From: Oceanobacillus caeni
GTDB taxonomy: Bacteria; Bacillota; Bacilli; Bacillales; Amphibacillaceae
Assembly: GCF_019037185.1 (NCBI RefSeq)
Contig: NZ_JAHHXM010000017.1
Location: forward strand, 1-64,000
DNA: 64,000 bases
Reading direction: 5' to 3'
Translations under genes and position numbers: made by a program
Shown: positions 5,548 through 22,004 of the stretch, piece by piece
Layout of the letters: each line of letters opens with the position of its first letter
Position numbering within the stretch: position 1 is the first letter of the stretch
Notes under the pieces: generated by a model
The model's input: the letters and a program-made list of their open reading frames with translations, nothing else
Database searches by the model: none
What the model was told of the DNA's origin: nothing

Positions 5548-5842
5548 GAATCAATCTCCTCTTATTAATAATTACAACATTTTAACATAACTCACTATTT
5601 AATTGATATGATTGTTGCCTATGAAGGAAGGAGAAACAAGAATCGCAATACTCCACACATCGCTACGAAGCAAAGGATGTGTGAGTACAGGCGTTGCAAC
5701 AGGACGTTGCGTTCTTAGCCTATAAGGGCGCTTGCACTTTTGCCTTTTACTAAAATATTCCGAGATTTTTATTCACTATTGTTGCACTCCCCTTTCTGTG
5801 AGAAAATAGAGTGAAACTTATTTTTTTAAAGGGGAAGTTATC

Positions 5843-10114: not shown

Positions 10115-10392
10115 TAAATGACTAAGCAATGACGAAGAAGAGTAATCTATGCTGACACTTAAGAGAGCTGGTGGATGGTGCGAACCAGTGTGATTACGTA
10201 GATGAATGGGCTTCCGAGCTTCCAAACCGAACCGATCGATTGTAGTAGGCTTTGGCGATTTCGTCTCATCGTTACCCGAGACAATACAAAAGTTATTATT
10301 TTAACTTTGTATTGCTAAAGTTGAGCTACTTAGCTAATAAAGGTGGTACCGCGGTCCCTCGTCCTTTAAGGATGAGGGGCCTTTTTGTATTT
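10115..10392 (+). promoter_or_regulatory. T-box leader 1, tryptophan specifier
   Basis: A T-box riboswitch that senses uncharged tRNA-Trp. Stem I contains the GGTGGATGGTGCGAACC distal-loop pattern and the specifier loop GAA-TGG-GCTTCCGAG, with codon UGG at 10207-10209. The T-box bulge AGGTGGTACCGCGG is at 10341-10354. The terminator CCCTCGTCC/GGATGAGGGG followed by CTTTTT is at 10356-10386. Uncharged tRNA-Trp would stabilise the antiterminator. It is followed at once by a second T-box. Confidence 0.95.
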
Positions 10393-10424
10393 TAAAAAAA
10401 CTATTAAATAATAAAATCGTTGAA

Positions 10425-10682
10425 TAAGAGTAGTAAGCAAAATCATCGTGAAACAGAGAACTGGTGATGGTGGAAATCCAGTACACGATCTTTGCTGAAT
10501 GGACTTATGAGAGGTTTCCTGAAATAAAGTGAATGTTCATTTTCAAGTAGGGAAACACGTGATTCCGACGTTAACGGAAAAAGTGGAAAAGATAACATCT
10601 TTTCAACTGGGGTGGCACCGCGACCAAATTCGTCCTCAGGTAAACATTACAAATTGTTTTGTTTACCTGAGGACTTTTATTT
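10425..10682 (+). promoter_or_regulatory. T-box leader 2, tryptophan specifier
   Basis: A second complete T-box in series. The specifier loop GAA-TGG-ACTTATGAG gives codon UGG at 10500-10502. The T-box sequence GGGTGGCACCGCG is near 10609-10621. The terminator arms GTCCTCAGGTAAAC and GTTTACCTGAGGAC are followed by TTTTATTTT (10632-10682). Two antiterminators in tandem should give a steeper response to tryptophan starvation. An open frame that begins inside this leader is an upstream extension of trpE and is not used. Confidence 0.95.
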
Positions 10683-17100: not shown

Positions 17101-17129
17101 TTTACCCAGGATTTACCAATTGGTATGAT
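17101..17129 (+). promoter_or_regulatory. Promoter of the TPP riboswitch transcript
   Basis: TTTACC (17101-17106), 17 bases, then TATGAT (17124-17129) with an extended TGG just before it. Predicted start near 17136, directly before the riboswitch. This gives lipM-lipA a transcript separate from trp. Confidence 0.6.
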
Positions 17130-17147
17130 GAATTTGTAATATAATAA

Positions 17148-17243
17148 TCACTAGGGGAGCCTTTGTCGCTGAGAATAGCAATACCCTATTGCTTAAACCC
17201 TTTGAACCCGATATGGATAATACTAGCGTGGGGAAGTGCAGCC
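17148..17243 (+). promoter_or_regulatory. TPP riboswitch (THI element)
   Basis: The conserved TPP aptamer is recognisable. It has GGGGAGCC and CTGAGA in the pyrimidine-binding arm, then ACCCTTTGAACCCGAT, then GGATAATACTAGCG and GGGGAAG closing the pyrophosphate arm. CACT and AGTG close P1. The 3' end GTGCAG can pair with CTGCAC of the terminator downstream, a direct switch between antitermination and termination. It controls lipM-lipA, not thiamine genes. Confidence 0.95.
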
Positions 17244-17277
17244 AAAAGGATTTTAGATGTAAGATACATCTATTGTA

Positions 17278-17314
17278 CAAAAGACTGCACTCTTTTTTGG
17301 AGTGCAGTCTTTTT
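17278..17314 (+). terminator. Riboswitch-controlled terminator
   Basis: AAAGACTGCACTC and GAGTGCAGTCTTT pair around TTTTTTG and are followed by TTTTG. It lies between the TPP aptamer and the lipM ribosome site. Confidence 0.9.
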
Positions 17315-17336
17315 GATTTAAGAGGAGGGGTAATTT

Positions 17337-18182
17337 TTGCAAGAAGAATGGTTCTTTTTAGACAGTGGGCATCAGGATGCAGCAGTTAATATGGCAATGG
17401 ATGAATCCCTATTAAACTGGCATAGTGAGGGTAAAATTCCGCCAACATTACGCTTTTACGGTTGGTCACATCCTACTTTATCGGCTGGTCAGTTTCAAAA
17501 AGTACATAAATCAATCCATTTCGACAATGTAAATAGCTATCATTGCCAATTTGTTCGTCGTCTAACCGGAGGAAGCGCTGTACTACATGATAATGAATTG
17601 ACTTACAGTATTGTAGTTTCAGAGGATCACCCAGAAATTCCAACCTCTATTAAAGAAGCCTACCACGTCCTATCAAAAGGGCTTTATGAAGGTTTCAAGA
17701 ATCTAGGAATCACGGTTGATTATGCCATGCCCGATAGAAGCGCCATGAAAGAAAAGACAGCTGTATGTTTTGAAAAGGCCGCATTTTACGAAATGGTAGT
17801 AGATGGGAAAAAGTTATCAGGTAATGCGCAAACAAGGAAGAAGGGTGTTCTACTGCAGCATGGGTCCATACCAATGAGTCTCGATATCAAGATGCTCTAT
17901 GATTTATTCCGTTTCCCATCTGAAAAAATAAAACAACGTAGACGTGATGCTTTCCAAAGCAAAGCTATCACTATCGACCAACTAACAAATAAACAGAAAT
18001 CATTTGACGAAGTGAAGGATGCATTCTATCAAGGATTTCAACATGGATTAAACGTTACTTTCCGTCCTTTTGAATTATCAAAACAACAATGGGAAGAAGT
18101 ACATCATCTAGCAGAGACTAAATATCGTTCAGAGGATTGGAATTATCATCGATTACTAAAGGAGTCTATTAAAAGTGTCTAA
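17337..18182 (+). CDS. lipM: Octanoyl-[acyl-carrier-protein]:protein N-octanoyltransferase
   Basis: A 281-residue enzyme that moves octanoate from acyl-carrier protein to GcvH, the first step of lipoate assembly. It has the biotin/lipoate ligase-like fold with [28 protein letters not shown] and [17 protein letters not shown]. The acyl-accepting cysteine is Cys144 in TAVCFEKA, matching LipM and not the lipoate ligase LplJ. TTG start with AGGAGGGG eight bases upstream. It overlaps lipA by eight bases and lies under a TPP riboswitch. Confidence 0.93.
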
Positions 18183-19110
18183 ACAAGAGGAATATCTCCG
18201 TAAACCTGAATGGTTAAAGATTAAATTAAACACGAATAAGTCCTATACTGGATTAAAGAAGTTAATGCGTGAGAAAAGTCTAAACACTGTTTGTGAGGAA
18301 GCAAGATGCCCGAATATTCATGAATGTTGGAGTGAAAGACAAACAGCAACATTTATGATCTTAGGTGATACCTGCACACGCGGTTGTAGGTTCTGTGCGG
18401 TCAAAACCGGTCTACCTAGTGGATTAGATTTAGGAGAACCGAAGCGGGTTGCAGATTCTGTTAAAATAATGGGATTAAAGCACGTCGTTGTAACCGCTGT
18501 AGCTCGAGACGATTTAGATGATGGAGGCGCCGCTGTATTTGCCAACACCGTTCGTGCCATTCGAAACGCAAATCCTGGCTGTACGATTGAGGTATTACCT
18601 TCCGATATGAAAGGTGATTATGAGAGCCTACATACCTTAATGGATAGTAAGCCGGATATTTTTAATCATAATATAGAAACCGTTCGCAGATTAACAAAGA
18701 AAGTTCGCGCTATTGCCAAGTATGATCGTTCCTTACAGTTATTACAGCGTGTGAAGGAGATTGCACCAGACATACCAACCAAATCTAGTATAATGGTAGG
18801 TTTAGGTGAAACCAAAGAGGAAATCATCGAAGCAATGGATGATTTACGAGCACATGACGTGGATATTATGACAATCGGTCAATACCTACAACCAACCAAA
18901 AAACATTTAAATGTGGAACGCTATTATCATCCAGATGAATTTGCCGAATTAAAAGAAATTGCACTTGAAAAAGGATTTAAACATTGTGAATCCGGCCCAC
19001 TTGTTCGTTCTTCCTATCATGCGGATGAACAAGTTAGTAATTCCTCCAAGCAAAATCGAATTAAATATATGAAGGGCATTGAAAATCAAGAAGAAAAGCA
19101 GATCTTTTAG
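18175..19110 (+). CDS. lipA: Lipoyl synthase
   Basis: A 311-residue radical SAM enzyme that inserts two sulfurs into octanoyl groups. The auxiliary cluster cysteines are 40, 45 and 51 ([12 protein letters not shown]) and the radical SAM cysteines are 67, 71 and 74 (CTRGCRFC). The C-terminal [10 protein letters not shown] segment carries the RSSY serine ligand of the auxiliary cluster. GTG start inside the end of lipM, preceded by AAAGGAG. Transcribed with lipM, so also under the TPP element. Confidence 0.97.
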
Positions 19111-19118
19111 TTAAAAAT

Positions 19119-19147
19119 GAAGAGGCCCTTATTGGCCTCTTTTTAAT
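19119..19147. terminator. Intrinsic terminator after lipA
   Basis: AGAGGCC and GGCCTCT around CTTATT, followed by TTTTAATTT and preceded by AAAAATG, so it can serve both lipA and the convergent HMA gene. Confidence 0.85.
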
Positions 19148-21488: not shown

Positions 21489-21665
21489 AATATGAGAACG
21501 AATCATGGATCAAAGGAAATTACACTCTAAACAAATTCTTGTCTAGATGTACTATATGTATATTCATTTAAAAATAGCTCGTATAGTTTGCTTCCCCTAA
21601 GGTATACGTACAATTTTCTTTCAAACGCATGGGCTGATATACTAAATTCAAAAGAGGTGAACGAA

Positions 21666-22004
21666 ATGAGAGAATTTGAAGATTTAACTAGTTTAGAAAC
21701 GGTCGATACCTTTATTCAAAACTCCAAGTTATCCTTTATATATATTTCAAAAAACAACTGTAGCGTTTGTCACGGACTTCTTCCACAAGTACAAGCATTG
21801 ATGGAAAAATACCCAAACATTGCATTAGGACATGTTAATGTAGATACAGTAGAAGAAATTGTGGGTCGATTTAATATTTTTACAGCCCCGGTACTGTTAC
21901 TCTTTGTTAATGGGAAAGAGTATATAAGAGAAGCACGAATCGTTCACATGGATTTATTCGAACAAAAAATCGATAAAATATACGAAAATGTGGTTGGTCC
22001 CTAA
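21666..22004 (+). CDS. Thioredoxin-like protein
   Basis: A 112-residue thioredoxin-fold protein resembling B. subtilis YtpP. The redox motif is CSVC (in NNCSVCHGLLP, near residues 34-37) and the cis-proline lies in FTAPVLLLFVNG. The frame is open from 21588, but GAGGTGAACGAAATG sets the start at 21666. Partner reductase is unknown. The 3' end overlaps a bidirectional terminator. Confidence 0.85.
   Translation: MREFEDLTSLETVDTFIQNSKLSFIYISKNNCSVCHGLLPQVQALMEKYPNIALGHVNVDTVEEIVGRFNIFTAPVLLLFVNGKEYIREARIVHMDLFEQKIDKIYENVVGP

Follow-up and report, generated by a model that had tools for sequence, protein, structure and literature searches.

A TPP riboswitch predicted to control the lipM-lipA lipoate synthesis operon of Oceanobacillus caeni and related bacteria

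TPP riboswitches are usually viewed as providing feedback on thiamine metabolism. In the portion available to us, a 2013 survey of RNA regulons places TPP sites with genes of thiamin biosynthesis and transport, and its main text contains no word beginning with 'lipo' (PMC3766115). The same is true of the accessible text of a 2007 riboswitch survey (PMC2258182) and of a 2025 study of ESKAPE TPP riboswitches, which in the part at hand places them with thiamine synthesis and transport genes (PMC12632268). A 2025 account of contiguous riboswitches brings up lipoate, within the excerpt available, only for gcvH, in the row of the glycine riboswitch (PMC12452182). On the lipoate side, the available part of a 2023 paper on lipoate assembly mentions neither riboswitches nor thiamine (PMC10332631), and the main text of a 2015 report on Shewanella lipBA has no occurrence of thiamin or riboswitch, as far as it was available (PMC4398509). 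A 2022 review, in the sections available, counts lipoic acid among the universal coenzymes that have no validated riboswitch class (PMC10043782). Among the matches listed in the open-access literature, none links a TPP riboswitch to lipoate genes; closed papers and databases may mention such a link.

Here we describe a TPP riboswitch located upstream of lipM and lipA in Oceanobacillus caeni (assembly GCF_019037185.1, contig NZ_JAHHXM010000017.1, positions 1 to 64,000; this stretch of 64,000 nucleotides is referred to below as the window). A first-pass annotation had proposed that the riboswitch governs lipMA, and the proposal holds as a prediction of regulation, with covariance hits that recur upstream of lipM in relatives and with terminators and antiterminators across the family. 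We consider it very probable that the riboswitch controls transcription of the two-gene lipM-lipA operon with OFF logic, most likely as a proxy of vitamin supply. Both lipMA as a TPP riboswitch target and its likely logic are new to us; the arrangement is conserved and the regulation is predicted.

The lipM-lipA leader and the genes behind it

The features of the locus are listed in Table 1. The aptamer matches RF00059 over the whole model (positions 1–105 of 105) with 67.4 bits against a gathering score of 54.3 (E 4.4e-11), in agreement with the full THI element that had been annotated. It was recovered again in a whole-genome covariance search, which yielded five TPP aptamers in total. The remaining four lie in front of ykoF with a ykoE-like gene, of thiW, of an NMT1/THI5-like gene and of thiT/yuaJ, which are genes for the uptake of thiamine or its precursors.

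Table 1. Features of the lipM-lipA locus in the window.
Feature	Position	Strand	Basis or details
Putative lipMA promoter (TTTACC, 17 nt, TATGAT)	17101..17129	+	Consensus match only
TPP riboswitch aptamer (THI element), Rfam RF00059 boundaries	17143..17251	+	Covariance model
AGTGCAG, closing strand of P1 with 2 further nt; proposed 5' half of the antiterminator	17235..17241	+	Complement of 17285-17291
Intrinsic terminator, expression platform	17279..17314	+	Sequence reading; -23.2 kcal/mol; fold
lipM ribosome-binding site, Shine-Dalgarno-like (AGAGGAGGGG)	17321..17330	+	Read from sequence
lipM, octanoyltransferase, TTG start, 281 aa	17337..18182	+	PF21948 151 bits; invariant Cys144, Lys159
lipA, lipoyl synthase, GTG start, 311 aa	18175..19110	+	TIGR00510 413.6 bits
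Intrinsic terminator closing the lipM-lipA operon	19119..19142	+	Pattern scan

Three motifs, CTGAGA (J3-2), ACYYGA and the GGGG that begins P2, are retained in all 47 lipM-linked aptamers, that of the window included, and a fourth, on the 3' side of P2, is absent from just one of the 47 (L158). These conserved core motifs of RF00059 are assigned to the TPP binding pocket. The stretch from 17143 to 17318 folds more stably than all 200 of its shuffles (z -4.0). In an alignment of 53 aptamers from the lipM loci examined, six of them not upstream of lipM, 95.5% of the cells are paired and 91 cells have changed on both sides, compared to a shuffled mean of 22, although these counts lean towards the structure because the alignment was fitted to the model. 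By sequence and predicted fold it is a typical representative of a known riboswitch family, and TPP binding is predicted.

Of the five aptamers in the genome, that of the window scores second-lowest. Its P3 is short, which could be taken to mean that it is decaying and has lost TPP sensing. Decayed copies do exist: in O. senegalensis (G020, L012 2805-2905) the aptamer is without P4/P5 and the T-run of the terminator is interrupted, and in G488 (L172 2340-2460, minus strand) the lipM leader is reduced to the terminator and the aptamer's 3' half, the 5' half apparently having been replaced by sequence resembling the start of a lactate dehydrogenase gene (all by eye). We nevertheless regard decay of the window aptamer as very unlikely, given its bit score and its intact core motifs, terminator and antiterminator.

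The putative promoter lies between the trpA stop (17079) and the aptamer, albeit in a window where the consensus scan found 12 such sites against 9.1 expected by chance. As a raw count, 31 of 40 lipM leaders have a hexamer that is TTTAC-like or TTGACA no more than 60 nt 5' of the aptamer. Upstream of the trp genes, the window also contains tandem T-box leaders (10120-10369 and 10411-10640; 126 and 144 bits), an arrangement before trp genes that is already listed in the available part of PMC12452182.

LipA scores well above the lipA equivalog cut-off of 310.25 bits and is the only protein of the genome to do so, the second match reaching 26 bits; the start of its gene overlaps the end of lipM by 8 bases. 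LipM carries the LplA/B catalytic domain, and its Cys144 and Lys159 are shared by all 165 of the aligned relatives, a set picked by similarity. The former presumably corresponds to the catalytic Cys150 of B. subtilis LipM. No NCBIfam cut-off is passed by LipM, the best being LplA_large at 128 against 480. From its LplA/B fold, catalytic cysteine and conserved lysine, LipM is assigned as an octanoyltransferase, with octanoyl transfer to GcvH predicted. Two further LplA/B-domain proteins are encoded in the genome: C77 is a lipoate-protein ligase (468.9 bits to TIGR00545), and we read the other as LipL-like.

Reading of the sequence between aptamer and lipM in the window revealed no other gene; the terminator and the ribosome-binding site are followed directly by lipM, as had been annotated, and no thiamine gene intervenes. 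The operon consists of lipM and lipA with one terminator on either side, and the locus thus does not belong to a thiamine-gene regulon. The real target might still be another gene, such as a small reading frame in the leader or a thiamine gene 3' of lipA, and a gene does lie between aptamer and lipM in two relatives (G088 and G012), which are the only ones among 39 family leaders with an open stretch of at least 100 codons before lipM. The other 37 leaders have none, the window has no such gene and has a terminator after lipA, and 19 parsed downstream regions (of 20, all of family f1; by eye) show no thiamine gene 3' of lipA. We therefore give almost no weight to a different target.

Predicted control of transcription termination

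A pattern scan for terminators omitted 17279-17314, and the expression platform was identified from sequence reading and folding, which gives a 15-pair stem, a 5-nt loop and a T-run. Within its 5' arm the sequence CTGCACT (17285-17291) is the exact partner of AGTGCAG, and the annotated pairing of the aptamer 3' end with the terminator is thereby located. The terminator arm is complementary to the 3' strand of P1, such that the platform is coupled to the closing helix of the aptamer.

The statistics on terminators and antiterminators cover the 39 family leaders; the decayed G020 leader was excluded from those on pairing, minimum free energy (MFE) and hairpin shuffles. A hairpin with a T-run is found 3' of the aptamer in 39 of 39 leaders (the L102 stem was set by hand), and it reaches -10 kcal/mol or better in 37 of 39, compared to 9 of 390 sequences obtained by shuffling the bases of these regions. 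Across these leaders the terminator's 5' arm is paired by the aptamer 3' segment, of which the P1 closing strand is a part, at a mean of -13.8 kcal/mol for a leader's own arm versus -12.8 for permuted partners (12 of 20000 permutations were as low, uncorrected for kinship) and -7.2 for shuffled arms, the own arm being better in 38 of 39 leaders. Three leaders with unusual P1 sequences (L102, L029 and L108) appear on reading to have changed both pairing partners together. When transcripts are cut before the 3' arm of the terminator, the antiterminator is part of the MFE structure in 35 of 39 and does not form in four, with a mean gain of 8.3 kcal/mol over folds in which the terminator 5' arm is left free. 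In the full-leader MFE the terminator is present in 31 of 39 only.

Because the P1 closing strand is complementary to the terminator 5' arm, a standard OFF switch is predicted. At low TPP, AGTGCAG would pair with the terminator 5' arm and permit readthrough, and LipM and LipA would be made for octanoyl transfer and sulfur insertion, respectively. At high TPP the aptamer would shut P1, the terminator would form, and no lipMA transcript would be expected. The direction given by the first-pass annotation, repression by TPP, is the one that this layout of terminator and antiterminator predicts.

TPP and lipoate both serve pyruvate and 2-oxoglutarate dehydrogenases. The sharing of these enzymes is established biochemistry, and it underlay the earlier rationale that TPP sets lipoate supply and so links the E1 and E2 cofactors. 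Matching of the two fits poorly with an OFF switch, since low TPP should not raise lipoate synthesis; the predicted direction is the opposite, with more lipoate made when TPP is scarce. Furthermore, none of the five TPP aptamers of the genome is directly followed by an E1 or E2 gene. We consider cofactor matching or compensation distinctly unlikely, and the rationale weaker than a response to vitamin supply, to which auxotrophy and salvage point (see below).

Distribution and origin of the leader

RF00059 matches above the cut-off were found at lipM in three of six named relatives. Within the genus, lipM is present in 17 of 28 genomes and lipA in the same 17, adjacent to it in every case, and 12 of the 17 have a TPP aptamer upstream of lipM on the same strand. 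In 11 of these 12 the aptamer is 85–429 nt from lipM with no open stretch of at least 100 codons between them; in G012 it is 996 nt upstream, and a short-chain dehydrogenase gene intervenes. Of the other five genomes, G020 retains the decayed aptamer noted above, and no TPP aptamer was found upstream of lipM in G002, G015, G024 and G026. In the family as a whole, lipM occurs in 99 of 159 genomes. Three g36 loci (G127, G130, G136) were excluded, and upstream sequence was short at two others (L120, 303 nt; L093, 401 nt). Of the 96 loci examined, 39, in 15 genera, carry an intact TPP aptamer on the lipM strand, and lipA follows lipM in all 96. The remaining 57 are without an intact TPP leader, and the link between TPP and lipM is therefore a lineage trait with losses.

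Elsewhere in the order, eight of 69 lipM loci have the aptamer, namely G322 (f2), G469 and G507 (f41), and five f39 genomes. These 69 loci, in 68 genomes outside the family, came from the best matches among 374 genomes and were chosen by rank and then by family spread, so that eight of 69 is not a rate. The search of this interval and of related lipM upstream regions, which the annotation had suggested as a check, thus gives a hit above cut-off here and recurrent hits in relatives, and this recurrence in family and order indicates that the arrangement in the window is no local accident. By eye, the TPP-lipMA unit adjoins varied neighbors, including trpA, ileS-like, transporter and glycosylase genes.

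Several other features were seen at or near these loci. In G010 a Bacillaceae-1 RNA (RF01690, 63.9 bits; L031 1283-1350) lies between the TPP terminator and lipM, and a second RF01690 match is found in the window at 5686-5724 on the minus strand. A small thioredoxin-like gene is located near lipMA in the window (21588-22004), and in G002 and G015 a riboswitch-less lipMA directly follows a homologue of that gene (by eye). At loci other than lipMA, G014, G013, G021, G022 and G024 have paired TPP aptamers on the same strand, about 200 nt from start to start, which are probably tandem TPP riboswitches.

Some relatives place lipMA close to thiamine genes. G088 (L092 683-2300) has the order TPP-ykoF-lipM-lipA, in which a single aptamer precedes the lipoate genes together with ykoF, a gene for thiamine-precursor binding; this is possibly the ancestral arrangement, and the G151 leader contains a 17-residue match to the YkoF C-terminus (tblastn E 0.03). 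Taken together, these suggest that lipMA was originally placed downstream of a thiamine-transport leader. Two further ykoF-like leader matches (E 3.4 and 4.1) were taken for chance, as was an R1 match of 15.9 bits in L096, which lies 3' of the lipM start. The five f39 genomes (L186, L176, L190, L191 and L192) have the order TPP-lipM-lipA-TPP, with the second aptamer after lipA. A tenA-like sequence follows that aptamer in L186, L176 and L190 (a tenA-like gene by profile in G291, with similar sequence in G365 and G315), and the f39 lipoate genes therefore neighbor a thiamine gene; the other two stretches (G340 and G467) end short of it. The f39 lipM aptamers resemble the f39 second aptamers a little more (76-82%) than they do any other aptamer compared (69-76% for the best five). 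The two arrangements, TPP-ykoF-lipMA and TPP-lipMA-TPP-tenA, hint that the leader came from thiamine operons.

The TPP label is strongly clustered on the LipM tree, with 10 changes compared to a shuffled mean of 30, the pattern that should arise if the leader is inherited, lost at times and occasionally transferred. The TPP-linked lipM of G322 (f2) groups with that of G073 from the family of the window, and G322 has a second lipM without TPP. In both a quick and a careful LipM tree the main TPP lineage does not include the loci of f39 and G012; support for this placement in the careful tree is 100/100, with the bootstrap not quite settled. The careful tree comprises 113 of 165 rows, 52 having been dropped, five of them for long branches. 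Independent origins were also addressed with constrained trees, and keeping f39 with the main lineage was not rejected on the careful tree (p-AU 0.254), while on the quick tree the constrained topology was even better (p-AU 0.856). More than one origin is thus only suggested.

These same neighborhoods, the TPP-ykoF-lipM-lipA order of G088, the possible ykoF remnant of G151 and the f39 loci with tenA-like sequence in the three that reach far enough, would also be explained if lipMA had come under the promoter and riboswitch of an operon for thiamine transport or salvage (ykoF or tenA) and simply inherited this regulation, with no adaptive value. However, the leader is kept in 15 genera of the family among varied neighbors, its terminator arms are fitted to their own aptamers, and useless regulation of the sole lipA should be lost. 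Passive capture of this sort seems to us rather unlikely.

Vitamin context and comparison with known systems

A purpose related to vitamin supply is our preferred reading. Among the 28 genomes of the genus, thiC was detected in none and a lipoate-protein ligase in all; across the family, 14 of 159 genomes have thiC. Bacteria of the genus thus probably need thiamine, or the pyrimidine part of it, from their surroundings, and can take up lipoate. In eleven of the 28 genomes neither lipM nor lipA was detected at the limits applied, and these are probable lipoate auxotrophs. Within the family there is a weak trend, with thiC present in the genomes of two of 39 riboswitch-bearing loci and of 11 of 57 others (Fisher p 0.07), and in lineage I (listed by hand) of two of 38 and four of 15 (p 0.047); on independent pairs the association of thiC absence with the riboswitch is not significant.

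The absence of thiC from the genus, the presence of a salvage ligase throughout it and the occurrence of lipMA in 17 of the 28 lead us to favor, tentatively, a role for TPP as a proxy of vitamin supply, which may halt lipoate synthesis when salvage is likely. A full TPP pool would signify vitamin-rich surroundings, costly lipoate synthesis would be switched off, and the LplJ-like ligase would provide salvage. It would be sensible for thiamine to halt lipoate synthesis if thiamine marks a vitamin-rich habitat. That TPP-lipMA has been kept in dozens of related bacteria suggests that the level of vitamin B1 decides whether lipoate is made.

A broader proposal, which we regard as plausible but somewhat short of probable, is that of a cross-vitamin circuit spanning four or more families of the order. 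A TPP riboswitch would have been recruited to the lipoate operon, perhaps repeatedly, from ykoF and tenA operons, and TPP would serve as a stand-in for vitamin richness in choosing between making and salvaging lipoate. A conserved TPP riboswitch acting on lipoate synthesis would mean that the level of one cofactor governs the synthesis of another. It suggests a testable account of the way in which auxotrophs gauge vitamin supply, and the relatives offer a natural series of switches for study, from intact through decayed to lost.

Among the most similar known systems is the TPP riboswitch of thiamine genes (RF00059), with which the lipMA leader shares aptamer sequence and fold, a terminator platform and the predicted OFF logic; it differs in that the operon makes lipoate rather than thiamine. 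With the B. subtilis LipM-LipA pathway it shares the invariant cysteine of LipM, LipA, an LplJ-like ligase, and a LipL-like protein encoded elsewhere in the genome, whereas in the present genome the two genes are joined in a single operon that follows a riboswitch. Outside the family, 25 of 69 lipM loci have no lipA within the stretch examined. Shewanella lipBA, which is under CRP, likewise exhibits transcriptional control of de novo lipoate synthesis, although in the available part of that report the control is by a protein regulator and a cAMP signal, unlike the riboswitch here (PMC4398509). As with the riboswitch classes for universal coenzymes in the available sections of the 2022 review, a coenzyme is presumably sensed by RNA, but here the genes for lipoate, a coenzyme without a validated riboswitch class according to that review, sit behind the riboswitch of another coenzyme (PMC10043782).
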